Below, one piece after another: positions 15,111 through 51,119 of a stretch of 64,000 nt of DNA. Where the stretch lies: positions 62,001 to 126,000 of the forward strand of contig JASANE010024922.1 of assembly GCA_030248225.1 (NCBI GenBank). Reading direction: 5' to 3'. The stretch comes from Trileptium ribeirensis. Taxonomy: Eukaryota; Nematoda; Enoplea; Enoplida; Thoracostomopsidae. Within the stretch, counting starts at the first letter, position 1. Each line of letters begins with the position of its first letter. The notes beneath the pieces are model-generated. The model saw only the letters and a program-made list of their open reading frames with translations, ran no database searches and was not told the origin of the DNA. The position numbers and the translations under genes were made by a program.

Positions 15111-15116
15111 TTTAAT
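15111..15116 (-). terminator. Candidate poly(A) signal ATTAAA
   Basis: ATTAAA on the minus strand lies 62 bases past the stop codon of the nine-exon gene at 15178, a normal distance for a short 3' UTR. Confidence 0.5.
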
Positions 15117-15177: not shown

Positions 15178-15420
15178 CTATCCATCAAGTCCTCTAAATC
15201 CAGAAAATCGCGTTCGCGATCGACCAGTTTGCCGTCCTGTTGTTCTTGGCCTTACCCGACTACCTCTTGTGCGACCACCACGGCGACCCCCGGATTTACG
15301 TCCATTCCCATTTGAATCACCACCATTGGAAGAGCTTGGCGAACCATCATCCTTTTGGTTGCTGAAAAGGCACACAGGATGTTTTTCATTGCGCGTCCGT
15401 GTGCAGTCTGGAAAGTCTTC
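15178..15420 (-). CDS. Secreted protein gene, exon 9 (terminal)
   Basis: The acceptor tttgtgcttttag ends at 15421 and the reading enters in phase 0. The 80 codons encode residues 472-551. The last two cysteines (477, 488) come first, then a Ser/Gly/Asn linker, then an Arg/Gly-rich tail (GRKSGGRRGGRTRGSR and on), then TAG. The tail resembles RGG-type low-complexity sequence, but here it sits on a secreted protein and could bind acidic polymers such as sulfated glycans (inference). Confidence 0.8.
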   Translation of the reverse strand, partial: EDFPDCTRTRNEKHPVCLFSNQKDDGSPSSSNGGDSNGNGRKSGGRRGGRTRGSRVRPRTTGRQTGRSRTRFSGFRGLDG

Positions 15421-18400
15421 CTAAAAGCACAAATACGAATTTGATTGAGAGAACGTTTAGCAAGAGCAAATATGCAAAGATACTGTTAAATTTGTTTAAA
15501 CTTGTGTTATAGCTAATCTATTCTACCAAAATCACTTACAAAACTCTGGTGTCAAGCCAATATAACTGGTTACAAGTAAATAAAATAATTGCAAATGTTA
15601 TTTTGTTGGTGTGTAAGATGCGTCGGTCACGTTATAATGTTCCTAACGTTTGGAACCTATGTACACAAAACAGTGTTAGGCACACTATCGACAATAGGGT
15701 GCCTTAGACACTCCTATGTTTTTATAAAGTTTTTCAAAGGTAGCTAGCTAGGGGTATTGCCACTTCTCTATGGTGCCAAGCACACCGTGCCTTCTTGCAG
15801 TTTTATTGGCAGTGTGCGGCATTATTTCGTCAACGTTCATATGGCCTAAGATACAAATATCAAGAGTTTAAAAAACTACGCAGCATAGTTGACTAGTAAA
15901 TCGCATTGACTAAAGACGGTTTCCATTACAGTTAATTCGAGCCAAATTGGTAGCTAAGGGTGTGGACGACACTGTAAAGAAAAATATAGTAGCTAGGGGT
16001 GTGTCGTATACCCTCGGCAATTGATTCACTGTATGACTGGCACCGTGACTGTCTATACGGTAGAATCGCGACTAGAGGGGACAAAAAGTTCGAAACAGCG
16101 GTGTCATTATAAGGTGAACGTCGCATAAATTTTCCAAACAGCTACTTATACGCGCGCTTGCTTAATCCAGATTCTGTTTAAACTTAAAAGTAACGGCATT
16201 CTTATAAGCTGTCAAACAACGAAAGGCATTGAAAGCATTGGCTAACCTTTTTTAAAACCTGGCTCTTGTGTCTGTGGTTTACTATTTTAAGTGGCCACTG
16301 GAATATACAATGGTACCAATAACAGCTTTGAACCAATGCTTAAATTTTATAAGTATAGTTCCAGGTTAAACTTGATAGAATATTTGGTAAAGTAAGTGCA
16401 TTAATACTAGTTGTCTTTGCCAATTATATAAGTGTACTTTGATGCTTTGCAAATATATGTTGAGTTTATTCAATACATATTGATTTTTGTGAAGCCATAT
16501 ACTACATCATTGCACTGTTTCATAGCCACATTTCCTATCGAGATGTAGCTAAACAAAAACTTTTTTACACTGCAATGTCCATTGTCCCTTTTTAAATCCA
16601 ATAAATTGAAGGGTCCAAGTAACCCTGAGGGGCGTTAAGTTATAACGTTAGAAAAAATAATCGGCTTAAAGCGTGGGGACGATGTTTGGTGCGGCAGTCC
16701 CCCAACTTAGGCTTAGTGTATGTGTCGTGTAAGAACCTTAGCTTAGGCTATGGCTAAGGCTTAGGATTAGTGTTCGCGGGAACGGTATGGCCTACATTTT
16801 ATTTACGCCCCTTAGGTGCGGCACCATATGCTAATCGCCTAATATTGGCTGTTTAAAACCGAATATCTGATGATTTCACAAACTCTAATCTAATTTACAT
16901 TTTTATCGTATAATAAATTTATAATATGTGCTGAACACGACGGCAATACATGCATGATTTGGCAACTGCGGCATTACAGTGATACTGCATCATTTAATTT
17001 ACACTTAATATATTTCATCGGGATTCAATATTTTTAAGGTTAGACTTTGTGTTATGTCCTTTTAATGTCATCGTTTTTTCTAGTATTATACAAAATTTTC
17101 ATAATTCATGGGCAGCTTTGCAGCGTCAAAAGACGCCTATTGAATTCACTACCTATTGGACCAGACCGTTTGACATTCCGCTTTTCAAGGTAGGTGCAAT
17201 GGAATATATCAGCACTGAGCATTTAGCCATAATATGTAATATATCGGACACGCAGTAGATAGATTATGGACGAATTGGCCAAAATAATTATTATCAAGAG
17301 TTCATGATGGCTATCTGAGAGTTTTCGACATCACCATATAAACACGCCAGGTGTGGCGATATGGGGGTTGCAGTGGTGACAACATGGTTCACGTAAATCC
17401 CTATGTGTTTATACGGTCATGGCGAGAAATATCATACTCTTGCCAAGAAGTCTTCATACTTCCTTAAAAAATTCAAGTCCGAAGGAGTAAAACACACTGT
17501 CGTGCCTTTCATTACAAATCAAAAATAGACAAAAACTTACAGGTTTATCGTAGTTGGTCACACCTTTCTTAACCGCAAAATCAATGACAACAGCCTTGCA
17601 TGCGACTTTGGCGATATAATTTTTAGCATCAGCACTGCTACGTTGAACGCCGAAGATTCCCTTCTTACCGCAAGAAAACTTGTTTCGATCTGTGATACGG
17701 AAGATGTCCATTTGTACAATTACAGACGATTTCTGTAATATATTATTTGATACAAACTACATGTTTATATTTAAGTATGAGTATGCGATTCCATCATGAT
17801 GCCGTATTCACATTGCCGCCGATCCGATACAAGTTGAAGCGACCCGCATCTGGTCTGATTCGATTTGCGTTCACGGGGCATCCGATCCATATGGTCCGAT
17901 TAGACCAAACTCAACGGCTACCGTATACCATGTGGATGTGTTTGTATTTCTTCATCCATCATCCGATTTAGATTTGATAAAACTTTGCATCCTCTATCGG
18001 ATCATATCGTGTCGGAGGCAATGTGAACACGCCCACACATACAATCCTTGGTTCAACCACGGCCATAAATACAGGTATTTCTAAATGTAGCTCTACAACT
18101 GTACAGTATTTTCAGAAATTACAGATCATGTCAATTTCTCCCTCCCAGTGGGTCATGTCTGCATTTGCCCAACCAGTTGTGTAATTCGTGTGAAGGTTGT
18201 CCCTAAACCACTAAACTAAATTTTAGCATTACACCCTAACCTAAATAAACATTAAATGTTTGCTGTTGCACTCATTATTAGGTCCTCTAAGATAATCATG
18301 TCAAGTTTCCAAACTATTTGGAAGAACATAAATATTGCAGTGGCACAGCTTAGGTTCGTTGTACTTCGTTATCAGGAAGTATTTAGCTATACCTTGATGG

Positions 18401-21400
18401 ATATATATTTTATGACGTTATTTGGAAAGCTATATCAAATCCAGTTTGTCCTACAAATACCAAATATTTTACGTATTACTTGTATTAAATCAGGTGGTTA
18501 TAAAAAATGATCGATATATCAAAAACACTCACGTATACTGTATACTCAGAATATTTAGACATATTTTTACCGACGTCAGCAAGCCTGCCAATTTTCCAAC
18601 TCCTCTGAGCCTTAATCAAGCCCGAATAAGATACCGTTACCACCGGAACAAGCTTTTTGTAGTCTGCAACCGCGTTAGGGTCTGGGCAATACTGAACCTT
18701 GATTGTTTCGGTACGAACATTTGTACAACGTTCTGCTCACAAGTATCAGTTGCTGTTATTAAATCAGTTGATTATCAAAAATGATCAATATATCAAAAAC
18801 CGTCGCATACACTGTATTCCCAGAATATTAAAACATATTTTACCGATGTCAGCAAGCCTGCCAATTTTCCAACTCCGCCGAGCCGTCCGCCAAGCCCGCC
18901 TAAGATGCCGCTACCACCGGAACAAGCTTTTTTGTAGTCTGCAACCGCATTAGGGTCTGGGCAATACCGAACCTTGATCGTTTCGGTACGAACATTTGGC
19001 ACAACGTTCTGTTCACAGGCATCCGTTGCTGTCGTTGAAAAGAAATAAGTGCTAAGATCAGAATGACGGCCACCGCCTGAACGTGGGCTTGGCTGACACA
19101 CGTTTTCATAGAAGCTGAAAATGGAGGGAAAAATTAGAAACAATCCAATGCATTCAATTTCGATGTACTTTTCAATATAAACAATGATAAACTGCGCCTT
19201 CCTTAAAGAAATGGGCACTGGACTACCTAGCGAGTTTTATAGAGACAACCACAAGATTTACCATAGTGTCAATTTTAAGATATTTATAGGTCAGAATTGA
19301 AACTCAGGCAAATGCGACGTTTATGTTATAAGATGTCCAAAGTTAGAAACGTCTTTTTCTTTGTATAATCACTGCAATACCGTTGTTTCTGGTAATCGGT
19401 AGGCTATAAAATGAAATACAAATCAAATGTCTGGGACACCATGTATAATATCAGATGTCTTCTACAAAAAAATTAAAAACACTTGAAAACGCTGTTCCAA
19501 ACAGCTAAGTTAAAATTTCAAACTATTGACCCCAGTTGATAACATCCCGTAATCACCTATGGCGTAAACCAGAGATAGAAACGGGTCACCGGGTCGTCGG
19601 GTCATTTCAGGTCAAATCTGTGACCGGCACTCATGGTCGCGGGATCACGGTTGGTGACCCGGTCTGATTCACATGTTAAAAACCAAGGTGCTCCATTGCA
19701 ATATACTCAACAGGACGGCTTCTCTTCTCGTTATATCAATGTCGTCTTTTGCCTTCTGCTTTGTCTGCCCTGCTCTTCCGCTTTTGCAAACTCAAGCGCA
19801 CATAAACTAAGATCTTCGACGACGACTGTTATAAATTCGCAATAAAATCTGACCTGAAGGTGAAAATTTAGCAAAAGTGTGTTGGGCTGCTTTGCGAAAC
19901 AGGGAAAAATTCATTAGTGTGCTCTTTAGAGCAGTTAACAAAGGCTATAGTTCTCACATATAAAATTGTGGATATCGTTTTAGAATTACAATATCAGTAT
20001 CGCACAGAGATAGTTTGATATAAAATAATGGTTCAGCGTCAATCCTGTCACTATCTTGACGATCGCTATTATACAAATAAATAATCAGCAACTCTTTATT
20101 ACCAGTTAACACCATTGCAGCGGGATTCGTCACCGCAGTCGAATTCTTTACATCCCGGAATATATATGTAGAGGCGGAATGCGAGATCGGATATGGCAAC
20201 GTTTGGTGGAATTCGAACTTTGGCATCGATATTAAAACAACCAGGAAATTCGTACTACAAAATTTTTTAAATTAATGTTATATTTTCTGGATCGCCCTAT
20301 ATCGATAAGTCATCTGTCCAGCTTGTTACCACAGTTACGAATTTCACGACGCTGCGACTGAGCATAAGTCTTAGTTAAATTTTTTGGATAGCTCTATATG
20401 GATAAACAGATCTGTCTGGCTTATTAGCACAATTCTGATTTCGCCACCCTGCGCCTGAGCATAATGTTCACCTAGATTTTCTGGATCATCCTATATCGTA
20501 AACATATATGCCCGGCTTATTAGTACAATTCTGATTCCGCTATGCTGCGCCTGAGCATAAGTCTCACTTAAATTTTCTGGATCGCACTATATCGATAAGC
20601 AAATCTGTCCAGCATATTAGTACAATTCTGATTCCGCAACCATGCGACTGAGCATAAGTTTCGGCTAAATTTTCAGGATATCCGTATATTGATAATGAGA
20701 TCTGTCCTGGTTATTAGCACAATTCTGATTCCGCTACGCTGCGCCTGAGCATAAGCTTCAGCTAAATTTTCTGGACCGCCCTATATCGATAAGCAAATCT
20801 GTCCGGCTTATTAGCACAATTCTGATGCCACGACGCTGCGCCTGAGCATGAGTTTCAGATAAATTTTCTGGATAGGTCGAGATCGATAAACAGACCTTTC
20901 CGGCTTATTAGTACAATTCTGATTCCGCTATGCTGCGCCTAAGCATAAGTCTCACTTAAATTTTTTTGATTGGATCGCCCTCTATCGATAAGCATATCTA
21001 TCCGGCTTATTAGCTGAAATCTGATTCCGATATCGCTGCGCCTGAGCATAAGCTTCAGCTAAATTTTCTGGAGAGCCCTATATCGATAAGCAGATCTGTC
21101 CGGCATATTAGTACAATTCTCATTCCGCTACGCTGCGCCTGAGCATACGCTTCAGCTAAATTTTCTGGACCGCCCTATATCGATAAGGAAATCTGTCAGG
21201 CTTCGAACAATTCTGATTCCGCCACTCTGCGCCTGAGCATATGTTTTGGCTAAATCTACGGGATCATCGTATATTGATAATGAGATCTGTCCTGGCTATT
21301 AGCATAATTCTGATTATGCGACGCCTGCGTCTGAGCATAAGACTGAGTTAAATTTACTGGGCCATCGTATATCGATAAGCAGATCTGTCCGGGTTATTAG

Positions 21401-24400
21401 CACAATTCTGATTCCGCGACGCTGCAGATGAGTGTAAAGGTCAGTTAAAGTTTCGTACAAAAAAAGAGAACAAGGACAAAGGAGTCCACACAAACAGACG
21501 CCGCGGGAGAAAAACAGGAAGGAGCCAAGAGCAGCGCAACCAACGCCCCCCCCCACACACCAAACAACACAAACCCCCCCCCCAACTAACTAGTGAAGCT
21601 CGCTTGCGAGCCAGAACTCGAGTAGTGAGAACAATCCCCCGAAGTCTGTTGTAGAAAGCACACACAAACAAAGTCTACACACAGTACGCAGGTGCAGCAT
21701 TATATAAACCGTGAGTGATGAGTCATAGTTACGCCCGCCTCTGTTGATAGCCAACGTATGCAGTTGACAAAACATCATACAACGACTACAAAAACATTCA
21801 ACTAACAATTTAATAATTCAATAAGACCCTAAATTGACCGTGAAAAGAACGTTAAAGAATTCAAACCGATACTTGAGAAAAATCTGATTTTTCATACCAA
21901 GTATCAAGCAGAAGTGTGAAAAATATTTGCCACACAATAGTTTTGACACTCGCAATGAGCTTGTCTGCCCAAAAAAACCCACATCTGACGCAAAACTAAC
22001 AATAAACACATATTCAGGTGCTTTTCCCACGACTTGTCACCAAAAATTTCGAAAACGTCATTTTTTATGCCAAGTATGAACCAGAAGTGTAAAAAAATTT
22101 GCCCATCTATATTTTTAACACTTGCAATGAGTTTATCTGCCCAGAAAACCCCATATAAGACACTAAAAGCAACAAAAACACACATTTAGGTGCATTTCCC
22201 ACGACTTTTCACCAAATATGAAACTTGGCGCCAACTATAAGCTTATGCATTCCAGATTGGGAAGTAGTTGAAAAACTTTTTATATATCATTGGCAAGCCC
22301 TGGTAAAGCTACATGGAATAGGCCTATTAGTTTGCGGATATCTCGTTTACTTATCGGGAAAAGCCGCAAAAACTGGAGGGGATGCCCGAAAAATGGGCCA
22401 AAATGATGTCATTTTGCCCCATAACTTTTCCCACGGGAAAAATTCAAAAATCGGGCTCTGTCACTACACATAAATCGACCATTGCGGTTCGAATGAGCTA
22501 TATTGCATTAAAATCCGCCCAACCATTATCGAGATCCAGGTGCGAAACACACACAGACAGGACCTCCTCAACTCTCCTCCAGAGCCAAAATTGAAAATTC
22601 TCGTTCCACTCGAATTCAAATATTTTTTCAGTAGTCCGTCCCTGCTGTCAATCTTAGAGACATAGCCGCTCCCGACTCGGATAAATATGTTGGCATAGCT
22701 TGGCTATTTGTTTTGTTTATGAAGGTCGAGATGTCGCTCTGCCATTTGCTTTTGTCACGAGCCGAAATTGGTTCTAAGACAAAATTCGGCCCTAGATGTA
22801 CACATCTTAAGGTAAATGATGCATTATAAAACGCTTTGAAATGCAATAGATGTTGAATGTCATAACTTGCAGTGGATAATTCCCTTATAATACAATTATT
22901 ACTTTAGTACCTTTTAGTACTAACTGCAAAGCAATTGCACAGTAAATCGCATGCGAATGTAAATTAACGTAGACATGTCACACATATTCTATATCCTGTA
23001 TAAAATCGCGAAAGCTAATAGTGAAAGAAGTGTTAAAATTTCGGTACACACAGATCTTTTCATTAAAACTAGTTTTGTTGTGGGATAAAATATCTTCAAA
23101 ATATAGTAGTTTAGCGCGAAATCTATTTCAAACTGCAGTTACTGATTTGGGTTCTACGTAACCCCTATTTACGGTCGCATATAAGAAGTTCTTTTATCTA
23201 CTAAAAGCTACATTTAGCTAGATATTAAATTTAGCTTTTACATTTTGCATTATATTGAAAATACCTACAGTACTTTGGTTTTGTTTAATTCATACGAATA
23301 GGTAAAGAAAAATACTGTCACAATTTGTCGAAGGGAAATACTGACAAAATTAGAGGGAATTTTCTATTTTGTAGAATCGTTTCGGTGCTTTTCAACATGA
23401 GCCAGGTCTGCAGTTTCACTTATAAAAGAAAAGAAGTCAGAAAATGTTCGTCCCCTTAAAAATCAATACAAAATACTAAATAATTAACTACCCTATGTCC
23501 TCATTGTGTACACTCAGTTCTTTTCTAAATTGCTTTTGCTATTTAGCGTAGCGACTATGAAAACAAATAGTAAGCTCGCGCTTTAGCAATAGGGATTGTT
23601 GGGATACAACACTTTAACTTACAGTGTCGCCTTTAGCATTCTCGTATTTGACATCTGCTTTGATGTATTTAAACCCGTTGGGATCGTCTTCATTTAGATT
23701 GTTGAACTCTGAAAATGTAAAATAATGACTTAGAACCTATCAGGTAAAATTTACAACCAACAATGTTCATAGGTTGGCGATTAATTTTAATAAAAACGAC
23801 GACTACTACTCCACTTTCTTATCAATAACATACCGATCGGTTGGTCTTTGACTTATTTATCATGTCAAATTTACAACCAACATTGTTCATACGTTGGCGA
23901 TTAATATGCTAAAAACATGAATACTACTTCACTATTTTCGAATAAATATCAATCGGTTATTAAGTTTGGTTTTAAGTAGAGCATATTAATCGCATTGTAG
24001 TTTCTGCCTCTTATATTCTTATCAAGATATCGAACTGACCTGCTCAAAAATTTGCACTTTATGCTTAGGTTTCAAAAAATGTCAAAGCGAAATTTCAAAA
24101 ATTATAAATTACAAAACTAAAGCGGGAACTGCGAAAAATATAGGTGAAATGTTGTGGAATGCTTCATTTTTACGCTATGCCTTTACGTACACTATGCTAT
24201 TCTTGATAGTCGATCGCTTTGAATGCGCAAGATACTTTTTGACATATTGTACCGTTATCTCTTAGGCCAAGGAAACATCGATTTGATTGAGTCTTTATGG
24301 CAATGGATAATCAATTATTGATATTTATTATTCGGCTTTAAGATAGAAAAGATGCAAACATTATTTATTCTTATATCACTATTATTTGAGGATCCCAATT

Positions 24401-27400
24401 TTGGTTACTGAAACGATTGTCCAAAAAATCTTTTAGATCGATATTATTCCAAAAACTTTGAAAAATTACTGTTCTGTCACACTACACGCGACAATTAGGT
24501 AACGATGTGGAAGCACGCATCGGCATTGGAGTAAATCTGTCAAGTACTGATAGTTTGGGGTTAGTGAAATGTAATAATAATAATACCTCGGACAACTAAA
24601 CTTTCTTCTTGTTTTAAGCAGAAACAAAGCTTCAACTTTGTTGAGGTTTCTAGCTGAATTTCCGGAAACGAAAACCAACCTGTCTGTTTTACATCGGCTA
24701 TCATACTTTCAAGTAGATTATTGTGATGCTTCTTTCTGGCGTTATACAAGTTTGAGGAAAGGAATGTGACTCAAATTTAGTAATGGGAAAACTAAATAAA
24801 ATTCGGTCAGAGCCTATATTACAATTTGATTTGTAGCAGGAAGTCCACTGAATGAACTGACATAACCTATTCAGTGTCCATTGTTGAAATTTATGAATGT
24901 TTAAATGTTTAATGTTGCGCCAATCGAATAATTTTAATGCAAGTTTACGAATCATCACGCTGTATACTTCCTACGACTATTAAGTGTCCGGTCAAAAAGA
25001 ATCAAGTACCGCTAAAAGCCCAACAAACTCATCGAATAAACGAAGATCTGTATGCATAGTTTGAGTGTTCTAATATGTTTGCGAAATGCAAATACTAATG
25101 AATATATGTTGTAGATTATTTACTTCCAGTACATGGCACTTCTCGGAATCGCTTTGCTTCTGTGGTAGCAAGTGGTTTTCGAAGATCTTTCGCTTCTGAA
25201 ACAATTTTTTTTAATCTGAGCATTATTTTCAATGGTACTTTTACCATTGTTCTAAAGAAGTCCATTTGTCATATATATGATGAAGACTAAACATCTGTTT
25301 ATATTTTGCAGAAATAGCGTTGGGAAAAAGCGAAAAAATGAGTTACTGTCGTTTCAAATGAATTATTTCATACTGAATCATGTCACCATCCATTCCCGGC
25401 ATTAGTTTCTTTCATTCTTTTTTGAGTATCACATTTGCAAAAAATCAACACTGTTTTGAATGTCGACAAAACGTAATTATGGCACCGCATCGGCCATAAA
25501 ACTCTTAGAAAGTTTCAGTTTTTTTGTCGATTTCATATAAAATTTTGTCTTTCACTGAAATATCGTTATAATTCGTGTTCATATTGTTTAAATAAGCGCA
25601 CATGGGCGAGGTTAGAAGTCCCAGGAAGATAACGGGTGCTACGGGGGTGATGTCTTCCCAAAGGGATCAGCCGGCGGGCGGGCGGTCGTCAGTGGGAATC
25701 AATTTTCTAAATTATTAGGGACCAAAAATTTTTCTTAACGTTAGACAATTTTCCCACAAACTATAATTTTACCTTGATTTTTATCAATTCTCTCCGGATT
25801 CTTGTCTATTATTGCCCAAATTTTCTGTGCACTATTTGCGCTCGGGGAGAGGGTGGGAGCTTCAAAGAAATCAGGTTACCTTTACGTGGGATCGGCGACG
25901 CCTTGAAGAAGTCCGAGCCTCAGGGGAGGGGGATAATCCCACGCTCCCTCTATAGGCATGTATGGAATTAACTGTATACTCGTATTCTTGTACTATATAC
26001 CCAAAACTGTGTAAAAGAACAACTGCGGCCACAACATAATTCCCAAAGCTATAAAATATAGCTAGCACACATTAATAATAGTACTTTTAACGAATCCTAT
26101 CGATGCCGTGTTTGATGTGTCAGCCTCTGAATATCCGATCGGTCCGTCAATTCCTCTTGCGTCAAAATCGGGTGATTTTCCAAGACCTAATGTTTTCCGT
26201 AGTTGAAACTAAAAAGTTAATAATATTATACAACTCGTACTATACAAATGGATATGGCTCTGGTACATAAATAATATTTTAGACCAGGTTAGCTTATAGT
26301 TTAGGTTATCATTGAGGTATGATAACTGATGACTTAAATACAACTTAACTCTGTGATATATCGCATTACAGATTCGCAGCTTGTTTATACATCCGCAAAC
26401 GATATGCTTTAATGCAACTCCTTTATTCAGCGCTGCCTTAACAACAACCTTAACTGTTAAACATGTATTAATTACCATTTATTCGAAAATTAAACTTTTA
26501 CATTAATAATAATAATAATACATTTATATAGCGCCTTTTTCGCAGAACGCGTTGCAAGAGCTCTTTAAATGAGAATACGTTAAGAAAACAAAACTCATAA
26601 TTGAAAGCAAGTATTAACCGATTGAAGATGTGCGAAAATTTTAACCATAATATTTTCGTGACAGCGTTGTTTAATTTTAATTAAATGTTTATTATTATTT
26701 ACATGGGCACTTAAGTTATTATTTACTTGGGCTTATCTTTAATCTTCAATAGCAATTCTGCGGATTTGGATTCATCCATACGGAAATATGCAAATACGCC
26801 ACACAACACTGAATTGCTTTATGGCAACAGTTTTCATGTAAAATTAAAATTATTTTGAAACCCGATAAGTATGTCCGCATATGATAGCCATTAATTAGGT
26901 ATAGTCAATTTATGCTCAGCGAATTGATTGCTCTATCATATATCGCAATATAATATATTATGCAAATTATATTGAATCCCAATACGTATGTACACATTTT
27001 CTCTTAATAGCCTTTAATTAGGTATAGCCAATTTCAGCTCAGCCAATTGCTCTATCGTATATCGTCATATTAATATGTTATGCAAATTATATTGAAGCCC
27101 AATAAGTATGTCCATATATTATGCGAATTATATTGAAGACCAATAAGTATGTCCATATTTTCTCTTTAATATCCTGTAATTCGGTATAGCCAAATTCTGC
27201 TCAGCCAATTGCTCTATCATATAGCGTCATATCAATATGTTATGCAAATTATATTGAAGCCCAATAAGTATGTCCATATTTTCCCTTAATAGCCTTTAGT
27301 TAGGTATAGCCAAATTCTGATCAGCCAATTGCTCTCTCATATATCGCCATATAATATATTATGCAAATTATATTGAATCCCAATACGTATGTACACATTT

Positions 27401-30400: not shown

Positions 30401-33400
30401 TCGGTCCATCTTTATTCGTGTACGCGTCCGCTTCCCATTCGGTAGTTCCTTTACGAACGTTCGTTATTCTGCCACCTTTGTTATTGTCGGCATTTTGAGC
30501 TCTGCCATCAGTACCGTCAACAATAGCGTTGTATCTGTAAATACAACATTTAACATGGATTAACATAATTGACTATATACATTCGTTTTGCAATAAATCG
30601 ACTAGTCCATCTGCAAATTATCTATATTCTTCGCTAAACAGTGCAGCGAAACATCCTGAATTCATATTTTCCCTGTAGTTACCCTGTCAAATACAGGATT
30701 AGTGAATAGGGATGCGTTTTTAATCCCAACATTTCTGGATGCCTAGCATTTTCACGTATAAAAGTGCAGATAACGAATATCTTGCAATGTAGCTCAAATA
30801 GAAACGAAATTCAAATGCTGAATAGTGCTGTATTAGCAAAATTAATCCAACGGGCTTAATTGTAACTTCTTTCTATTTGTTATATATAATACTAGTATAA
30901 TATTAAGTTAGTCAAGAGTGCATATAGGAAGAGTATATAAGCCATTTGCCCTTTCAACCAGTCTAATGTTAACCTGTACTTGATGACATGGGCGGTTTAG
31001 AGCTTACACCTTTATTTCTGGCGGGAGGGGTCATAACGTACAGACCCCTAGTTTTGTGAAAAGGGGAGAAGCTCGGTTCCCTATCCAGTTTTAGGTTAAT
31101 TGTTTGTTGCAACAAAATTTTTCTCACATTTTGCACAATTTAGTCATGGCGACTCCGATGGGTACGAAGCTGAGTATAAATAAAAATAGTTTTAACTACG
31201 AGTTATCCTGCAGCAGCAACTTCCACTGATGATGTACTATGGTAGTGGAATATTGTAATACTTACCAATAGCACATGCAAATATTAACTCGCAAATAAAA
31301 AACGTCCATATTTCGGATCAACGGATGAAGACATAATATTTCGCATGAACGGATGAAGACACAATATTTCGCATGAAAGGATGAACACACAATATTTCGG
31401 ATGAACGGATGGAGACACAATATTTCGGATGAACGGATGAAGACATAATATTTCGAATGAGCGGATGAAGACACAATATTTCGCATGAACGGATGAAGAC
31501 ATAATATTTCGAATGAACGGATGAAGACGCAATATTTCGGATGAATGGATGAACACACAATATTTCGGATGAGCGGATGAAGACACAATATTTCGCATGA
31601 ACGGATGAAGACATAATATTTCGAATGAACGGATGAAGACACAAAATTTCGCATGAACGGATGAAGACACAACTTTGTGAATTAAAATTACACATTTTCG
31701 TAATCCATAACATACAAATTATACGCATATTTTAAGTTTAATCATCTTTTTGATCGAAGGTTTTACCCACGTCATCGGATGTATGTGCCCAAAATTAGGT
31801 TGACTTTCCAGAACATCCGTGACGACAATTATGGCCCAATTTCTTCATATATCTGACAACTATTGTTGACAGTGTACTTACTACTGTTGACGGCATGGCA
31901 CCTACTATGAGAGCCACTATCGCTGACCATCGAGTAAGTGACATTATTCACTGAATTACATTTGTTAACACAGCACACTAGTCCAGACTGGCGGAGCGGC
32001 TACAGAAGAATTGGGGAGATAGTTTTACAGGCCCACCTGGCATTGGGAAGTTTGCCGCTGTCGAAAAGTAGGTGAACGTCCACATCTTGAGTCGCTGCCC
32101 CAAAGTACATTTATTAACATAGCACACTACTCGAGACTGGCGGTGCGACTACAGAAGAATTGGGGAGATAGCTTAACAGGCCCATCTGGCATTGGGAAGT
32201 TCGCCGCTATGGAAAAGTGGATGAACGTCCACATTTTGAGTCGCCGCCCCAAATTACATTTGTTAACATAGCACACTACTCGAGACTGGCGGAGAGACTA
32301 CAGAAGAATTGGGGAGATCACTTTGCGGGTCCACCTGGCATTGGGAAGTTCGGCGGTGTCGAAAAGTGGATGAACGTCCTCATCTTGAGTCGCCGCCCCA
32401 AATTCAATTTGTTAACACAGCACTTTATTAAGACTGGCGAAGCGACTACAGAAGAATTGGGGAGATAGCTTTACAGGCCCACCTGGCATTGGGGAGTTCG
32501 CCGCTGTGGAAAAGTAAATGAACGTCTCCATCTTGAAGTGCCGCCCCAAATTACATTTTCACAGGATCGTCGTCGGTGTTGTGAGGCGAAAAGCATATAG
32601 ACGAGTAAACGACGTTAGTTATGTGGTCAAGCGACAGGTACTAACTGTGCTGCAAATTTAACTGGAATAGGTAACCCCACATCAGCGCTGAGTAGTAAAT
32701 GCATGTTTATAGAAAAGCACAAATCAATGATTTATTATTTATATGTGATATAGTTTTTAGTAATATAATTCTTTAATCTTAGCACTGGTTTTTAGGCCTT
32801 TGGATATATTATGTTTTGTATTTATTCCAAAAAACTTTTAATTCCATCGAATATCTACCATCTAAACCACAGTCGACATTTACTGAGCATCGACTAAGGA
32901 CTATTCAGGGTGTCGCTAAGCAAAAATACTGAGTATAGTTGAAAAAAGTGCAAATTGAAGTTTTTACTATTAAAGCATCATCAAATGAAGAATATAAAAT
33001 CATAGTCAAAACAGATAATGGTGGATATATTTTCAAATACTTAAAGAGATTTCTTTGCAACTAAGCTATTTCGCTGCATTTTATGTTGCATTTACTGGCT
33101 CGGTTTACGACCGCTCTTCTCATCAACAGCTTTCGAGCATTGTTTCACTTTGCAACAAAGCTATTCTGCTGCATTCATGTTGCACTTAACGGCCTGGTTT
33201 TGCGCCCGACCTTCGCGTCACCTGCAACAACGGTGTTTCACTTATCAATTAAACCATTTCGCTGCAGATATGTTGCACTTACCGGTCCGGTTTGCGCCCA
33301 CCTTCTCGTCATCAACAGTCACATGTGTTTCACTTTGCAATTAATCTATTTCGCTGCAGATATGTTGCACTTGCCGACCCAGTTTTGCTCCCGCCCTTCT

Positions 33401-36400
33401 CGTCACCAGAAACAAGGGTGTTTCACTTTGCAACAAAGCTATTTCGCTGCAGACATGTTGCACTTACCGACCTGGTTTTGCGCCCGCCCTTCTGGTAACC
33501 AGCAATCACGCGTGTTTCAGTTTGCAATTAAGCTATTTCAATGCAGATATGTTGCACTTACCGACCCGGTTTGCGCCCACCCTTCTCGTCGCCTGCAATC
33601 ACACGTGTTTCACGATCCTGTTTTCGAACTTGATGCTTGGCTTTAACATCGCGTCGTGGTCCTTCTACTTTTGCAAGACCCTCTCCGCGTTCACTTGGAT
33701 TTTCTGCCCACTGAAATATGATGTCGAACGGTTTACCTTTAAAATTCTAACACTCTAAACGTAGTAATATATAAAACCCAAACTAGGTATTACAAATAGG
33801 CGTTTAAGCGAAATACGTGAGAGCTCGAGCATTGAACACATCTACATTTATATTTATAATAATGTCGTCCGATGTAAGATTTAAAATTTATTAGACCTGC
33901 TTGACCGAACGTAAAGCCGGGATATGCTTTCATTCGGGAGGCTATAAAACTTGTAAAATTTGTTTATATAATATTAAGAAAACATATTTATATAAGCAAC
34001 GTTTATGAGCCAATTTATGTAATATTTCAGAGCTTTGCACTGAAAAAACTGAGTATTAACAATTTTCATAACCGCTATGTAAATACGTGTTTACACACAA
34101 TAGATTATCCTCTGGCAAAATTCCGCACCCTTGTTAGTGCCCTCAGGCGAAATTATTAGCTAGCGGGAGTGACCCGTAATATGGGTTTTCAAAGTAATGC
34201 TACATATTTCTTTGCATTTTGTAGCATAGTCGTTTGAAGTCAAACATTCAATCTGAAGTTCGTTGTCTTTTGATCAGCTCCTATAGTTCTGTCTTCTAAC
34301 ATTTTACAACCAACAATTAACTTTAACTTGTATGTTCGATATTTGTCTATAACACGTTAATAGGGAATGACGTGAAAGCACTGTCTATCTTGACATACAT
34401 TTTCGTCATAGCTTAACTTGGTTATGAGCACATACCGTTCGGAATGCAAAACGTTTTTTTCCGAGTGAGAGTTAAACCCTTAGTCTTTTGAATAGGTAAG
34501 GCCATGCTCTGGACGACTAGGCCACGTTATCAATAATCTGTTCTGCATTATATCGTGGATCGATTGAATTACTGTACGCTTTGCCCAAATAGCATTCAAG
34601 TGTTGCGGGCAGCCTAATATAAAAACTGGATCGGAGATAACGTAACTTAGATCCAAAAACCACATCAACGTTTCAATTACAAAATGGGGACAGTTAGTTA
34701 CCCCAATTTCGCGGAAACAATAGACAAAACCGTTACACGACTACAAAGACGATTTTGATCACAATTTTATATCTTACTGCGTGCGTATATTATAGTGTAT
34801 TCAGCCGACAAAAATCATAAACGTTGCTGTAGAACTCTTTTTAGTTTACTCAAACGTCACGTTGGAGCGTTAGGAATAGTAATTATTAAAAGTTGTTAAA
34901 CGTGTATTATTTCTTGCTGTTAGCTCCGCATTATTGATATGTCGAGCTTGCTGAGTAGGGAACACCATCGGCTGCTTCTGATATGCTGTAGAGATACTTA
35001 TGACAATGATAGTGCTGAAGGAAATCAACTAATCTGCAAGCGGAAATGTTTGAAATCTATATTTAGTTAAGGCAACAGTGCATTAGAGAAGAGTATGATA
35101 CTTCCATGCACTCTAATGTTTTCGGCCTACCTCCCTCATTTCTGGGAGGGTTATCATGCACAAACCCCCAGTTTTAGGTCGGAGGATAGACACCTAGTTT
35201 TTTTGGGGTGGGAAGGGTCGGTTTATAAGCAGCTACCGGTTCAATCGAAACCCCTCAAAATTGGGGGATCCGAGCTTTCGCCCCCTAAAACTGAAGCGGG
35301 TCCGCGCAACCATCCAAAAATGGTGTGTGCATGACCACCCCCCAGAAAAGAGGGGAGGGGGTTAGCCCGAAACCGCACGTATCGTCGATCACGGGCTAAC
35401 ATTATAGTGCAGGGAAGTGTCATACTCTTTCCTAACACACTCTTGGTTAAAGGAATTGCACAGGAAAGCACTCAAATAACTAAGCACGTTCCAATATTTC
35501 AATAAAACTTATCCGAGCGGAATCAGCTAGCTGCACGTGAGTTTAAGTATTCTAAATATAATTTTGGATTATAGCAGTATCTAGCTAAAAGTTAGAAACA
35601 TGTACGCTGATTATATAAGATCCCGCAATGCATTTTGCAAGCTATCTCCACCAATGGGTTCATGACATATTCTAGAGAAGAATATTAGACTCTTCGGCTT
35701 CACAATATAAACGCTTGGGACATAACGCGAAAATCTTTGACAATTCTTTTGGGTATAGGTTGGGTGGTACATTAAAATTTTTGCCGTCCCTACATAGTTT
35801 TAAGAGCACATTTTTAATAACAAAACTTTGTTTCGACACCCGACATTTTCTCGAGAGGGCCCCTTAAAAACTATCGGATGGGTACAAATTTTTATACGAT
35901 GCCATGAGTCATACAAAAGTTAGGGTTAACCCAGGGACCACAGGGTTGAAATCGAACGGCAGTAGCAGGATTATAGTGGCGACGAGGTGTAGTACTCTTG
36001 TCAAAAAGCCGTCACGAACTCTTGCTATAATCTAAGCTCAATCGATACGACGTTTCAATATTGTTGGCTGTGTAAACTGCAAGTGGCGCTTCAATCGACA
36101 GCTATAGCTGAGAATATTATCACACACTTGTAAAGCGGTATCACACTCTGAAGAAATGACCCAAATATAACAATTTCCCTGTTAATATTGCCAACTGGTT
36201 GTCGTGATTAATAGGTAAAATTTGCATAAGCACATTCGTATATTTTTAGTAAAATTGCTGTCATACACACAGAAAGTGGAAACTAAAATCATTCATATTC
36301 AGTGTTTTCTTTGAATTTGAACGTAACTACGCTAAAACATTCCAAGTTGTTTTATTTTTAGCCGTACTCATGTTGCTGCGCGCTGTCAATAAATTTCAAC

Positions 36401-39400: not shown

Positions 39401-41363
39401 AATGCTGAAAGTTATAAATTTTAACCACGTTCGTGCTGGCGAACAGAAGCGAATCCTGAATTAGTTAATGTTCTAATTAGTAGTGAACCGTTTTCTATTA
39501 ATAAGAAATCGCCAAAATCCTGTTCCAAGACAGTAATTTCTGGCAGTTGGATTCCACTTTTTCCAATTTTGGTGATCGACAAACCGTGCTAAATTTCCTG
39601 TTTGTTCCGTAAAAATGGTTTTCGATTCCACATAGTCTATGACAAAATAGGACGAACGGGTCATTTTAAGTTCAGTCGCGCATTACGACATGGTTCAATG
39701 ATCAAAAAATCAAATTTTCAAAATTTACCATTTACAACTTTCAAGAATTTTGTTTTATTGAGCATTTCTTATCGTGCAACAGGCGAGTACACGTACAACG
39801 AAGATGCTGGTTCCCTATGTCCAGCTATTGCGAACTTCTATAGGTCGTTTCTATACAGTTAAATCGCAACTCCTTTGAAAGAAAGTGTCGAAATTTGATA
39901 TGTTTCTATACAGTTAAATTGCAACTCCTTTGAAAGAAAGTGTCGAAATTTGAATGTTTCTATACAGTTAAATTGCAACTCCATTGAAAGAAAGTGTCGA
40001 AATTTGATACGTTTCTATACAATTAAATTGCAGCTCCTTTGAAAGAAAGTGTCGAAATTTGGTACGATTCTATACAGTTAAATTGCAACTCCTTTGAAAG
40101 AAAGTGTCGAAATTTGATACGTTTCTATACAATTAAATTGCAGCTCCTTTGAAAGAAAGTGTCGAAATTTGGTACGATTCTATACAGTTAAATCGCAACT
40201 CCTTTGAAAGAAAGTGTCGAAATTTGATATGTTTTTATACAGTTAAATTGCAACTCCTTTGAAAGAAAGTGTCGAAATTTGAATGTTTCTATACAGTTAA
40301 ATTGCAACTCCATTGAAAGAAAGTGTCGAAATTTGATACGTTTCTATACAATTAAATTGCAGCTCCTTTGAAAGAAAGTGTCGAAATTTGGTACGATTCT
40401 ATACAGTTAAATTACAACTCCATTGAAAGAAAGTGTCGAAATTTGACACGTTTCTATACAGTTAAATTGCAAATCCATTGAAAGAAAGTGTCGAAATTTG
40501 ATACGTTTCTATACAGTGAAATTGCAGCTCCTTTGAAAGAAAGTGTCGAAATTTGATACACTTTCGGCATTACCACTGTGTCCGTGACCCAATGTAAGTT
40601 TAAAAGCAGCAAAATCAACACGTTTAAGGCTATAAATAATGCTACAGACTAAATGCGCCACATGGTGAAGAATATTCGCTTTAGAATCACAATTTTCAAA
40701 ATTAACTTTTTTCTGATATTTATTTAACCTTTGACTCATTGCTCGAAAACAATTGCATTGACCATAAAATGTTGCCTTAGAAAAATTGTAGTCCGCAAGG
40801 ATAGGATTCTTTGGTTTTATTTAAGCGAACTGTTATTAACGAAATATGGGTTTAAATTATATAAACGAAAATCCGAGTCTTTATTTGGCGTCAGTTGTGT
40901 GAGATTTTGCAGCAATAATAATCAACAACGGAGAAGCGCAAAAACAAAAGCAAGAAACTTAGATAGACGTAATTAAAGTCTCAAAAATTCTAACAAAGGC
41001 AAAAGATTCACCAAAAAAGCATTTTTGCACCTACAAATGCTGTAGCAACATAGAGCATAAACGTTTTATGTGGAAATTGAGAGAAAACATGTGGCGGTAT
41101 TTGAAAGATCTCAGCGAGCCATTGCTGAAGAAATATCGCGATATACATGAGTTGGTTAGTAAGCATTTCGGAGTCTTACCTTTCTTGCCAACGCGTTCAG
41201 CGATCACTTTTTGTCTTCGAACTATTGTCGCACTTTGTTTGCCACCTCGTGCCCTTTCATACGGATATGGTGGTCCAAAGTTACTATCGAAAGCAGATCC
41301 GTAGTCCAGCATTAGCCCAAGGGTCAGGACAGTCGTTACTGCGAGCAAAATGTATATATTCAT
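15178..41363 (-). CDS. Nine-exon gene for a secreted, basic, Cys-rich protein of 551 residues (gene-level entry)
   Basis: Exons, 5' to 3' on the minus strand: 41363-41180, 38343-38150, 33710-33562, 30534-30350, 23708-23623, 20254-20103, 19114-18844, 17732-17541, 15420-15178. Intron phases are 1, 0, 2, 1, 0, 2, 0, 0. Every junction agrees, all introns are GT/AG, and the total is 1656 nt including the stop. The product has a signal peptide (1 to about 24) and a basic low-complexity region (about 35-240) rich in K, R, G, N and S with dibasic sites such as RR at 49-50. A domain with 13 cysteines follows (272, 301, 306, 312, 317, 323, 350, 368, 381, 428, 452, 477, 488). A Gly/Leu stretch at 382-405 and an Arg/Gly-rich tail (about 512-547) complete it. 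An odd cysteine count suggests one free or intermolecular cysteine. I recognise no family; an extracellular matrix, egg- or sperm-coat or tunic protein is possible but only inferred. I am confident of the gene structure and not of the function. Confidence 0.8.
15619..16125. mobile_element. 507-bp MITE, copy 1
   Basis: The termini are inverted copies of TGCGGCGTTCACGTTATAA (here TGCGTCGGTCACGTTATAA on the left). The interior has tagctaggggtattgccac and gtgccaagcacaccgtgcc blocks shared with copies at 45980-46486 and 47945-48432. This copy sits in intron 8 of the nine-exon gene. The 3-bp T-N-A flanks of the other copies suggest a PIF/Harbinger-type element. No transposase is encoded. Confidence 0.75.
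16600..16830. repeat. Dispersed repeat with ggcttag-rich core
   Basis: The segment with cgttaagttataacgttagaaaaaa, then cttaggctta-type runs, is shared with 43735-43900 and in part with 38400-38510. It is probably a dispersed transposon fragment. The ttaggc-like runs are short and imperfect, so this is not telomeric DNA. Confidence 0.5.
17084..17189 (+). CDS. Candidate plus-strand exon antisense to intron 8 of the secreted-protein gene
   Basis: A pyrimidine-rich acceptor (tcgttttttctag, AG at 17082-17083) and a strong donor (TTCAAG then GTAGGT at 17190) bound an open exon of 106 nt, phase 2 in and phase 0 out. It encodes 35 residues including FHNSWAALQRQKTPIEF and WTRPFDIPLFK. The phase and junction match the exon ending at 13487. 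No downstream partner was found. The product is unknown. If real, this gene overlaps the nine-exon gene on the opposite strand. Confidence 0.4.
17541..17732 (-). CDS. Secreted protein gene, exon 8
   Basis: The acceptor aatatattacag (AG at 17734-17733) and donor GTAAGT (17540-17535) enclose 64 codons, phase 0 to 0, residues 408-471. It contributes cysteines 428 and 452, with the blocks MDIFRITDRNKFSCGKKG and KVACKAVVIDFAVKKG, which look like alternating beta-strand sequence of an extracellular domain. Confidence 0.8.
17806..18032. mobile_element. Short MITE, about 230 bp
   Basis: The left end (attcacattgccgccgatcc) and right end (gtcggaggcaatgtgaac) are imperfect inverted repeats. The interior is rich in repeated atccgat motifs. 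It lies in intron 7 of the nine-exon gene. The superfamily is not determined. Confidence 0.6.
18571..18757 (-). pseudogene. Decayed tandem duplicate of exon 7
   Basis: This is a diverged copy of the 3' two-thirds of exon 7 and its donor, offset by about 276 bp. The flanking intron is also copied: tgatcgatatatcaaaaac near 18508 against tgatcaatatatcaaaaac near 18783. Single-base deletions relative to exon 7 (in the GTTGTxCAAATG and CTACAAAAA regions) shift the frame. Following exon 7 in phase 0, the copy meets a stop, so it cannot be a useful alternative exon. Confidence 0.8.
18844..19114 (-). CDS. Secreted protein gene, exon 7
   Basis: The acceptor ccctccattttcag (AG at 19116-19115) is entered in phase 2, so its first C completes a Cys codon begun in exon 6. 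The donor is GTAAAATA at 18843. It encodes residues 318-407: cysteines 323, 350, 368 and 381, then a Gly/Leu-rich stretch (GILGGLGGRLGGVGKLAG). The exon is flanked by its own decayed duplicate at 18571-18757. The 141-residue ORF at 18793-19218 reads through both splice sites and should not be used. Confidence 0.85.
19565..19675. repeat. GC-rich inverted repeat
   Basis: gggtcaccgggtc (about 19583-19595) pairs with the later ggtgacccggtc (about 19652-19663), and ggtcgcgggatc-type motifs lie between. It could form a hairpin in intron 6 and is probably a small element remnant. Confidence 0.45.
20103..20254 (-). CDS. Secreted protein gene, exon 6
   Basis: The acceptor aaaattttgtag (AG at 20256-20255) is entered in phase 0; the donor AACTG then GTAATA at 20102 leaves in phase 2. 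It encodes residues 267-316: CFNIDAKVRIPPNVAISD, AFRLYIYIPGCKEFDC and GDESRCNGVN, with cysteines 272, 301, 306 and 312. The ORF finder shows only another frame here (19954-20226). The correct frame is fixed by phase agreement with exons 5 and 7, and the junction codon TG plus C gives Cys317. This is the most conserved-looking part of the protein. Confidence 0.85.
20275..21440. repeat. Tandem array of about 98-bp units, about 12 copies
   Basis: Units contain taaattttctggatcgccct, atatcgataagcaaatctgt, ccggcttattagcacaatt and ctgcgcctgagcataag. The gagcata anchor recurs about every 97 bp from 20360 to 21330. The array fills part of intron 5 of the nine-exon gene. Confidence 0.9.
21441..21592. 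other. Low-complexity C-rich and purine-rich block, possible assembly artefact
   Basis: Runs such as cgccccccccc and accccccccccaac, and a purine-rich gagaacaaggacaaaggag stretch, contrast sharply with the AT-rich intron. They sit exactly between a tandem array and a mobile element. Long C runs in such a place are often sequencing or gap-filling errors. Confidence 0.4.
21593..22620. mobile_element. Non-coding inverted-repeat element, short copy
   Basis: Second copy of the element at 2623-4302, with the same ends (tagtgaagctcgcttgcgag and cgttccactcgaattcaa). It lacks the extra internal 740 bp of the long copy and contains internal subrepeats around tctgcccagaaaaccccat. Close similarity between the copies suggests fairly recent movement. 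It lies in intron 5 of the nine-exon gene. Confidence 0.65.
23623..23708 (-). CDS. Secreted protein gene, exon 5
   Basis: A short exon of 86 nt between acceptor attttcag (AG at 23710-23709) and donor GTAAGT (23622). It is entered in phase 1 and leaves in phase 0, encoding 28 residues (FNNLNEDDPNGFKYIKAD and on). It is too short for an ORF scan. It was found from its splice sites, and phase agreement on both sides supports it. It forms the start of the folded C-terminal region after the basic linker. Confidence 0.75.
23711..26859. other. Part of intron 4, no further feature supported
   Basis: No additional exon fits the required phase. Minus ORFs at 24466-24958 have a possible acceptor but reach a stop in the required frame. 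A diverged direct repeat lies near 23750-23900 (acaaccaacaatgttcatag then acaaccaacattgttcatac). A GC-rich patch lies at 25600-25690, and an (aat)n microsatellite at about 26505-26521. Confidence 0.5.
26860..27880. repeat. Diverged satellite units with a 401-bp internal duplication
   Basis: Units related to the 119-bp satellite that follows (atgcaaattatattgaagcc, caataagtatgtccatattt, ggtatagccaaattctgctc) but more variable in length. A block of about 401 bp is duplicated: the variant attgaatcccaatacgtatg occurs at 26971 and 27372. Confidence 0.85.
27881..29720. repeat. 119-bp satellite array with a six-unit higher-order repeat
   Basis: About 15 head-to-tail units of 119 bp: the ctctatcata anchor lies at 27921, 28040, 28159 and onward. 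Diagnostic variants recur exactly six units (714 bp) apart: ttttcctaag at 28261 and 28975, gacttaaata at 28411 and 29125. The array therefore contains two copies of a 714-bp higher-order unit. It lies in intron 4 of the nine-exon gene. ORFs at 27885-28222 are artefacts of it. Confidence 0.95.
30350..30534 (-). CDS. Secreted protein gene, exon 4
   Basis: The acceptor gttgtatttacag (AG at 30536-30535) is entered in phase 2; the donor GAGCG then GTAACC (30349) leaves in phase 1. It encodes residues 177-237, very polar and basic (for example GRAQNADNNKGGRITNVRKG and KDKNKLVKARQGEKSRS), with no cysteine. Reading on past the donor gives a longer ORF to 30213, but only this donor gives the phase needed by exon 5. 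Confidence 0.8.
31310..31680. repeat. 28-bp minisatellite, about 13 copies
   Basis: The unit is close to aatatttcgcatgaacggat plus gaagacac. Because 28 is not a multiple of three and the minus-strand unit lacks stops, all three minus frames stay open and give three overlapping false ORFs of 128-136 residues with a 28-residue period. It lies in intron 3 of the nine-exon gene. Confidence 0.95.
31985..32540. repeat. 149-bp tandem array, four copies
   Basis: The cattgggaag anchor lies at 32041, 32190 and 32339, with a variant near 32488, a spacing of 148-149 bp. Units include actacagaagaattggggag and aaagtggatgaacgtccaca. It lies in intron 3. The ORF at 32217-32468 is contained in it and is not taken as coding. 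Confidence 0.9.
33080..33600 (-). repeat. 93-bp tandem array carrying copies of the exon 3 splice donor
   Basis: About six units; the gttgcac anchor lies near 33085, 33179, 33272, 33364, 33458 and 33551. On the minus strand each unit matches the end of exon 3 (GACGAGAAGGGTGGGCGC and on), its donor and the following intron. The donor GGTAAGTGC is intact in the units at 33551, 33458 and 33272, but altered in the others (GGCAAGTGC at 33364, GTTAAGTGC at 33179, GTAAATGC at 33085). The plus-strand ORF of 187 residues (33083-33646) is a by-product, since 93 is a multiple of three. Confidence 0.9.
33562..33710 (-). CDS. Secreted protein gene, exon 3
   Basis: The acceptor catcatatttcag (AG at 33712-33711) is entered in phase 0; the strong donor GTAAGTGC (33561) leaves in phase 2. 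It encodes 49 residues plus two bases (WAENPSERGEGLAKVEG to DEKGGRKPG), basic and polar, part of the low-complexity region. The exon was found from splice sites and phase, as no ORF on this strand marks it. Its 3' end is the first unit of the 93-bp array, so the exon end and its donor have been amplified into the intron. Confidence 0.75.
35087..35437. mobile_element. MITE of about 350 bp
   Basis: The ends are inverted repeats of about 30 bp: agtatgatacttccatgcac then tctaatgtt on the left, and aacattatagtgcagggaag then tgtcatact on the right. The interior is rich in short G and C runs. It lies in intron 2 of the nine-exon gene. The two antiparallel ORFs within it are not genes. A related fragment may be present at about 30910-31080. 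Confidence 0.65.
35438..38149. other. Part of intron 2, no supported feature
   Basis: No exon fits the phase 0 to phase 0 requirement. The plus ORF at 37557-37796 covers a GC-rich patch (about 37640-37820) of uncertain origin, perhaps a repeat. Confidence 0.45.
38150..38343 (-). CDS. Secreted protein gene, exon 2
   Basis: The acceptor gtttaatttcag (AG at 38345-38344) is entered in phase 1; the donor CGG then GTAAGA (38149) leaves in phase 0. It encodes residues 63-126, strongly polar (KHNAEVEKGSNRASG, KNGKDAEATNNGKKAA, SKSSKDYKIEAGAKASGR), rich in K, A, S, N and G, likely disordered, with no cysteines. Confidence 0.8.
39845..40570. repeat. 55-bp tandem array, about 12-13 copies
   Basis: The unit contains gtttctatacagttaaattg and ctcctttgaaagaaagtgtc. 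The ctatacag anchor lies at 39851, 39906, 39960 and onward. Two unit variants (gatacgtttc and ggtacgattc junctions) alternate in blocks. It lies in intron 1 of the nine-exon gene. Confidence 0.95.
41180..41363 (-). CDS. Secreted protein gene, exon 1
   Basis: The ATG at 41363 is in a good context (CAACAATGA). It opens a classic signal peptide: residues 1-24, hydrophobic core YILLAVTTVLTLGLM, likely cleavage after GSA. The mature start is FDSNFGPPYPYERARGGK, and a dibasic RR lies at 49-50. The donor AAG then GTAAGA (41179) leaves in phase 1, matching exon 2. The plus ORFs at 41068-41413 are shadows. Confidence 0.85.
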
Positions 41364-45560: not shown

Positions 45561-45979
45561 TTGCTATCGTATCGCTTGACAATGTGCGCATTATCAAATG
45601 AGTTACACTATATGGGAAAGTGTTAAAAGAACGAAATTCGCAAATGTCCTAACAAAGCAGAACTCAGAACATTTTATCTCATGTTAATAAATTAGGTAAC
45701 CATACAAGCTATAGTGCAAACAAGCGTTAATTTCGTGCAAACTAACGTCGATCACTATGGCATGTTATAGAGCACCGCATGTACTGACACCACCTGCACA
45801 TACTCCTTTTGAACGGCGAGCGGACTTTAGCAATTAGGATTAGAATGTTCCAATAACCAGAGTGGGCAAAAGACGAAAAATGTCAACTATCTGTTCATTT
45901 TTACATTGAACTTAGCGCAATAAAAACACAGGGCTAGTTTGGATTATATGTGCGAATTACAGGTTTACATCATGTATGA

Positions 45980-46486
45980 TGCGGCGTTCACGTTATTGTG
46001 TCCCCGCTGTTTGGAACTTTTGCCCACCTGTAGTCGCGACATTACAGTATAGACAGTCAGGGTCACGCCCATACCGTAAAACAATTTCCGATGATATATG
46101 ACACACCCTAGGTTCCACATCTTTGTTCACTTTGTCGTACACACCCTTAGTTACCAATTTCGCGCGAATTAGCAGGAACAGATATCTTCTATAGCTAATG
46201 CGATATATCAGTCAGCTACGCTATGTAGATTTTTTATGAATCTCAGTAATGGTATCTAGACTTTATGACCGTTGACAAGATTATGCCGCACACCGTTAAA
46301 AACTACAAAAAAGACCCGGTGTGCTTGACACCGTCGAAAAATAGCTATACCTCTAGCTAGCTGCCCTTGAAAAAAATTATTAAAAACATGGGGATGTCTA
46401 AGACACCCTATTGTCGACAGTGTGCTTGCCACTGTGTGTGATACATAGGTTCCAAACATGGGAGACATTATAACGTGAACGCCGCA
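45980..46486. mobile_element. 507-bp MITE, copy 2 (inverted relative to copy 1)
   Basis: The terminal repeats TGCGGCGTTCACGTTAT and ATAACGTGAACGCCGCA are nearly perfect, and a TGA trinucleotide flanks both sides. It has the same length as copy 1 (15619-16125). The ORF at 46256-46468 is inside it and not a gene. Confidence 0.8.
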
Positions 46487-47944: not shown

Positions 47945-48432
47945 TGCGGCGTTCACCGTTATAACGTCCCCAACGTTTGGAACCTAGGTACACCACCCAG
48001 GGTCAAGCACACTGTCGACAACATGGTCTCTTACACACCCCTTTTTGATAACTTTTTTAAATGGTACCTAGCTAGGTGCATTGCCACTTTTCGACAGTGT
48101 TAAGCACACCGCGTCTTCTTGCGGTGTCACTAACAATGTGCGGCATTATTTCATCAACCTTCATATGGCCAGGATACAAATATCGAAGATTTTAAAATAC
48201 ATACACAGCTCAGTATACTAAAAAATCGCCTTAGCTACATACGGTGTGCGTTACAGCCAAACTGGTAGCTAAAGGGTGTATACGACACTGTAAAGAAAAA
48301 TGTAATAGCTAGGGGTGTGTGGTACACCGTTGGAAATTGATTTACAGTATGAGAGTCACTCAGGCAGTTTAAACGGTAGGGTCGCGCCTACAGATGGACA
48401 AAAGTTCCAAACAACGGGGATATTATAACGCA
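47945..48432. mobile_element. 507-bp-family MITE, copy 3 (about 488 bp)
   Basis: The left terminus TGCGGCGTTCACCGTTATAA is intact and the right terminus is shortened (TATTATAACGCA). TAA flanks both sides. The interior has the same tagctaggtgcattgccac and aagcacaccgcgtcttct blocks as copies 1 and 2. Confidence 0.75.
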
Positions 48433-50789: not shown

Positions 50790-51119
50790 CTGGAAAATAT
50801 TCGGGTTAGAGTTTAAACCAAGTGCTGCATACTGTAACGTATTTACTATATATTTTTATATTCAATTTAAGTCGTAGGAAGGGTGGAGAACATGGAAATC
50901 CAATGAAAAATATTTTTCTTTTTCCAATTTTTCTTAGCGACCTAGAAAACATGAAAATAAAGCTTTTCGATTTCAGTAAATGTAAAATCCACTTGGAATA
51001 ACAAAATTCACTGACAAAATATATATTAGCTGTACCTGTTGTACTGCTTCATACCTTAAATTTGAATAAATATATTTAGTGCCAATTTTCGCTGTGTATC
51101 TTTGCAATACAAGTAGCAC

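Follow-up and report, generated by a model that had tools for sequence, protein, structure and literature searches.

The minus strand of the window, which is the whole stretch of 64,000 nucleotides that was analysed and looks like animal DNA, very probably carries a real gene, to judge from the sequence. Its product is best read as a lineage-restricted secreted protein that is probably associated with an extracellular matrix. The gene is made up of eleven coding exons running from 41363 down to 15178, assembled as a chain by script, and these give a single open frame once joined. The exons total 1950 nt and encode 649 amino acids before the stop, including 14 cysteines. All ten junctions preserve phase, and all ten introns are bounded by GT and AG. 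The exons are as follows.

41180..41363, minus strand: exon 1 (184 nt), with the ATG, the signal-like residues (about 1-24) and the first basic residues
38150..38343, minus strand: exon 2 (194 nt), residues about 62-126, phase 1 in and 0 out; missing from the nine-exon model discussed below
33562..33710, minus strand: exon 3 (149 nt), with its 3' end and donor inside a 93-bp minisatellite
30252..30534, minus strand: exon 4 (283 nt), basic region; donor AAG/GTTTGC, 6/9 consensus matches
26085..26208, minus strand: exon 5 (124 nt); donor AAA/GTACTA, 5/9
25124..25195, minus strand: exon 6 (72 nt), carrying Cys 333, phase 1-1; donor 6/9, acceptor with 5/12 pyrimidines; missing from the nine-exon model
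23623..23708, minus strand: exon 7 (86 nt), part of the eleven-exon chain
20103..20254, minus strand: exon 8 (152 nt), where the Cys-rich core begins
18844..19114, minus strand: exon 9 (271 nt), Cys-rich core
17541..17732, minus strand: exon 10 (192 nt), Cys-rich core
15178..15420, minus strand: exon 11 (243 nt), with the last Cys residues, the Gly/Arg tail and a TAG stop

The splice sites are of mixed quality. In-frame stops lie upstream of the ATG in exon 1, which ends in a strong donor, AAG/GTAAGA (8/9 consensus matches), and an ATTAAA is found at 15116, downstream of the stop in exon 11. Other sites are weaker. The donors of exons 4, 6 and 8 reach 6/9 and those of exons 5 and 9 reach 5/9, and only 5/12 positions are pyrimidines at each of the exon 6, 8 and 10 acceptors. 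Taken alone, the splice sites are not decisive for the gene model.

Coding statistics were examined as well. A codon model was trained on ten exons at a time; the exon left out was scored with it, and the score was set against decoys of similar length. These decoys are pieces of intron 60-300 nt long that are bounded by AG and GT and free of stops in one frame. There are 2938 in all, some of them taken from the copies of exons 3 and 9 described below, and they were scored by a model built from all eleven exons. For six of the eleven exons no decoy scored as well: exon 2 (held-out score 24.8; 0/498), exon 3 (22.1; 0/893), exon 4 (26.8; 0/110), exon 9 (13.9; 0/137), exon 10 (7.8; 0/522) and exon 11 (22.5; 0/238). 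For four more, between 2 and 9 decoys were as good, namely exon 5 (4.7; 4/1232), exon 6 (8.4; 3/1424), exon 7 (6.9; 9/1632) and exon 8 (4.9; 2/860). In 10 of the 11 exons, then, no more than 0.6% of decoys match the held-out score. Exon 1 fails the test, with a score of -0.4 that 24 of 563 decoys equal or better, and the case for it is made by the ATG and the signal-like residues, together with a strong donor and a fitting phase.

Two further measures are to be read with more care. For intron pieces matched in length to the exons, the product of the probabilities of being free of stops is about 1e-16, a figure that overstates the case because it ignores the freedom with which exons were chosen; the held-out decoy test is the fairer one. 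The chosen frame outscores the other two in all eleven exons, a comparison that is partly circular since stops are penalised in the other frames and the exons were picked as open. First codon positions across the exons are rich in G and poor in T. The exons have a GC content of 46.6% vs 36.4% for the introns, but one by one only three of the eleven rank within the top 2% of intron pieces. The decoys were also considered as candidates for further exons. The two best of the 2938 are degenerate and come from the exon-3 minisatellite and the exon-9 copy, and the remaining decoys among the 18 listed score lower, with none convincing by eye.

Exons 3 and 9 both have their donor ends copied in tandem into the introns that follow. 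At exon 3, about six units of 93 bp form an array (33613-33053) that begins within the exon and runs through the intron. In four of the later units the exon end recurs and leads into GTAAGTGC (two units), GTTAAGTGC or GTAAATGC, and one further unit reads GCAAGTGC. A TAA stands in frame immediately after the end of exon 3, and use of a later donor would therefore end the protein. At exon 9, a segment made up of the 3' half of the exon, its donor and the start of the intron is duplicated head to tail, with copy 1 at 19032-18757 (276 bp) and copy 2 at 18756-18483 (274 bp). The second copy is listed here as a feature of its own.

18483..18756, minus strand: degenerate exon-9 copy 2, with single-base gaps and out of frame; unused in the gene model

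Tandem arrays cover 25%, 49%, 71% and 44% of introns 1, 3, 4 and 7, respectively, and none lies in the other six introns. In DNA this rich in repeats, the exon chain could have arisen by chance or be in decay, with no functional gene behind it. The share of intron 4 taken up by repeats, the broken copy adjoining exon 9, the weakness of several splice sites and an exon 1 that is inseparable from decoys all lend themselves to such a reading. Against them stand 649 codons without a frame break and the scarcity of decoys as good as the exons in all cases but one, and we regard a chain without function as highly improbable.

A nine-exon gene had been proposed at this locus in the initial annotation. 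The start at 41363, the stop at 15178, the minus strand and the open frame of that proposal all stand, but the exon count and the product are not confirmed. Its figures could be reproduced, namely a length of 1656 nt with a single stop, encoding 551 aa with 13 Cys at residues 272-488. The total of 1656 nt is not reached by any combination of 7 to 11 exons of the eleven-exon model, and the composition of the nine-exon model was worked out by arithmetic as exon 1 cut at 41208 plus exons 3, 4, 5, 7, 8, 9, 10 and 11. Relative to the eleven-exon model, exon 1 ends 28 nt early and the intervals 38343-38150 and 25195-25124 are missing. The nine-exon transcript could be the true form or a second isoform that uses the early donor and leaves out exons 2 and 6. 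Its frame is open and its junctions preserve phase, and skipping exon 6, which is 72 nt long with phase 1-1, keeps the frame; that symmetrical phase makes exon 6 a possible cassette exon. The early donor has 6/9 matches, whereas the donor 28 nt further on has 8/9. Among the 3644 GTs on the minus strand, 13.7% reach 6/9 and 0.27% reach 8/9. The score alone does not exclude the early donor, since donors of the eleven-exon model themselves score 5 or 6, the early donor equalling donors 4, 6 and 8 and beating donors 5 and 9. The stronger argument for eleven exons is exon 2 itself, as its held-out score is the second highest of the eleven and is hard to explain if the exon is unused. In addition, exon 6 supplies the fourteenth cysteine and so makes the number even, and skipping it leaves an odd number. 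We consider the nine-exon transcript very unlikely, and the eleven-exon model is used from here on.

The DNA around the gene looks eukaryotic, with an intron-bearing gene, many tandem repeats and a fragment of retroelement RNase H, and the window as a whole is AT-rich (36.6% GC). The array in intron 4 (26884-29734) contains 22 units of 119 bp at 27114-29729 and a 401-bp unit present twice at 26884-27693. Two dispersed repeat pairs were seen, 2616-3044 with 21588-22020 (91% identical) and 3803-4244 with 22188-22612 (89%). Both pairs lie in the same order, which suggests that a single mobile element is present twice, in one case within intron 7. A repeat of about 500 bp occurs at 15608-16126, 45979-46497 and 47944-48428, about 77% identical and with one copy inverted, and may be a non-autonomous element. 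There is also an inverted dispersed repeat at 52235-52459 and 60051-60268 (72% identical over 229 columns).

Of the 111 flanking open reading frames of at least 60 aa, 20 were given to Pfam. The sole match above its cut-off among these 20 was RNase H at 1-309 (E 1.8e-12). Below the cut-off were a fragment of an integrase core (rve) at 56570-56911 on the plus strand (E 0.0011), which we take to be possibly Polinton-type, and several other matches with E from 0.01 to 0.1. An open stretch on the minus strand at 50424-50855 has several hydrophobic segments, a terminal stop and an AG before it. It resembles the final exon of a gene for a membrane protein, and its only Pfam match is MRAP, again below the cut-off (E 0.02). 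A search of the whole window with Rfam at gathering cut-offs found nothing, and neither did a tRNA scan with ARAGORN under the bacterial code.

The 649-residue product can be divided into regions by composition. Residues 1-24 are hydrophobic (GRAVY 1.43), with no Lys or Arg and one Asp, and small residues precede the presumed signal cut, GSA/F, the pattern described by the -3,-1 rule for signal-peptide cleavage. The N-terminus is signal-like by composition, which is compatible with the earlier prediction of a signal peptide. The basic, disordered-looking stretch proposed in the same annotation is supported at the level of sequence, as residues 25-271, with a pI of 10.2, plot on the disordered side of the line that separates folded from disordered chains by charge and hydropathy. 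The hydrophobic residues of this stretch show a faint alternation (z of 2.0 at lag 2 and -3.3 at lag 5, among 12 lags). Residues 336-590 contain 13 Cys with a pI of 8.6 and are the sole segment on the folded side of the line among the mature segments tested. A domain with 13 cysteines had been described before, and this count fits the core but falls one short of the whole eleven-exon product. The 59-residue tail (residues 591-649) is 25% Gly and 22% Arg, with a pI of 12.0. It had been called RGG-like, a loose term for it. A tail rich in Gly and Arg does exist, but RGG-box proteins are defined by clustered RGG/RG repeats, and this one has three RG, one of them RGG. Four basic clusters of the BBXB type are found at residues 49, 60, 311 and 326, with none in the tail. 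Fold models of single exons, made without an alignment, reached pLDDT values of 48.0 for exon 10 and 45.2 for exon 9, which are too low to use.

Relatives were sought in several collections. Pfam returned no families at E up to 10, NCBIfam none at E up to 1, and the PDB sequences none at E up to 10. Against a set of 5.8 billion proteins, residues 320-600 gave 1970 candidates with none at E up to 1, and for the full product (residues 1-649) scoring covered the 7992 candidates with the most words in common, with none at E up to 10. Six peptide patterns were also run against viral and prokaryote contigs, giving 4 and 22 matches, respectively, none of which was confirmed. With no Pfam match, nothing points to a protein of a mobile element or to an enzyme. 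As a control, a 103-aa fragment of retroelement RNase H, presumably gypsy-type, was used as the query and found 2 proteins from 2 candidates in the protein set, an imperfect control in that a fragment query meets just proteins of about 57-180 aa. Gypsy-type retroelements are abundant in animal genomes, and the result suggests that animal proteins are scarce in the set. Since the control query met so few proteins, the lack of relatives says little in favour of novelty. The product matches no family in Pfam, NCBIfam, the PDB sequences or the protein set, in agreement with the earlier view that its family is unknown. The further statement that no family is known to have this order of parts is not contradicted by the searches, a weak negative given a protein set that is probably poor in animal sequences. 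Secreted proteins without relatives are a common kind in invertebrate genomes, those of marine species included, and are hard to annotate where, as in this gene, short exons are separated by repeat-filled introns.

Two known systems offer a comparison. Oikosins are the house proteins of the tunicate Oikopleura. They number 80, about half of them without domain modules, share very little with the Ciona proteome, and in 59 of the 80 cases start with M(K/R)(I/L/F) (PMC3390340). The likeness to our product, which is by description only, is that of secreted matrix proteins, many of which have no domain modules. The 649-aa product begins with MNI and so departs from the N-terminal signature given there, which does not exclude it from the oikosins, as 21 of the 80 also do without the signature. 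The second system is fuhc-sec of Botryllus schlosseri, an allorecognition ligand. It is a secreted protein of about 550 residues with a signal sequence, an Ig domain and two EGF domains, and its gene lies at a distance of 227 bp from fuhc-tm, a neighbour with three Ig domains (PMC12065747). The size of about 550 is near that of the 551-residue nine-exon product, but the better model has 649 aa. Identity with fuhc-sec was rejected, as it has an Ig and two EGF domains and no Pfam domain was found in our product. No Ig domain was matched in the 20 of the 111 flanking open reading frames (at least 60 aa) given to Pfam.

How such a protein might work can be outlined from its composition. The signal peptide would route the protein into the secretory pathway, where the 14 cysteines would pair as disulphides and hold a compact core at about residues 336-590. 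The flexible Lys/Arg-rich N-terminal region and the Gly/Arg tail would remain extended. These polycationic arms may then bind acidic material outside the cell, such as sulphated glycans or acidic proteins, and the protein would in this way cross-link a matrix or coat. We give a secreted basic cross-linker of this kind, with a disulphide core between polycationic arms, somewhat less than an even chance. The matrix role taken on its own is plausible but tentative. Neither an N-glycosylation sequon nor RGD was found in the 649-aa product, and the missing sequon, which is expected in many large matrix proteins, counts against that role.

A precursor or an antimicrobial role would be in keeping with the basic region too. 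Here the secreted protein would be cleaved at basic sites to release small cationic peptides that act against microbes or as signals, and the Cys-rich part would be another product. The product has 17 dibasic sites, 8 of them within residues 25-271, as such a precursor might. It has no clear repeated peptide unit, however. A faint repeat is possible in residues 25-271, where the best internal repeat scores 46 against a shuffle mean of 36.3 and maximum of 49 (n = 40 shuffles), and in residues 336-590 the score equals the shuffle mean. No multi-basic furin-type site stood out either, among eight short R-x-R and three RxxR matches. We think a precursor unlikely.

Alternatively, the protein may belong to an egg coat, sperm or seminal fluid, with the Arg-rich tail binding nucleic acid or the acidic glycans of a coat. 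The composition of the Gly/Arg tail, with its pI of 12, is in keeping with this. The missing relatives would fit a reproductive protein that evolves fast. The absence of a Pfam domain of any kind speaks against it, and a reproductive protein appears decidedly unlikely.

The lineage-restricted, probably matrix-associated protein remains the best reading. A more speculative extension of it, doubtful but with some chance of being right, is that the core of about 255 residues and 13 Cys founds an undescribed family of secreted domains limited to one animal lineage and set between two polycationic arms, in a gene still being reshaped as its exon ends and their donors are copied in tandem into introns, a process that could give rise to new isoforms. 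With the corrected exon map, the gene is directly checkable by anyone with transcript data. The copies of exon-donor junctions offer a modest example, open to testing, of how tandem duplication can multiply splice sites. If the core is a new fold, it would add a domain to those of the matrix; if not, this would be an ordinary lineage-restricted gene.
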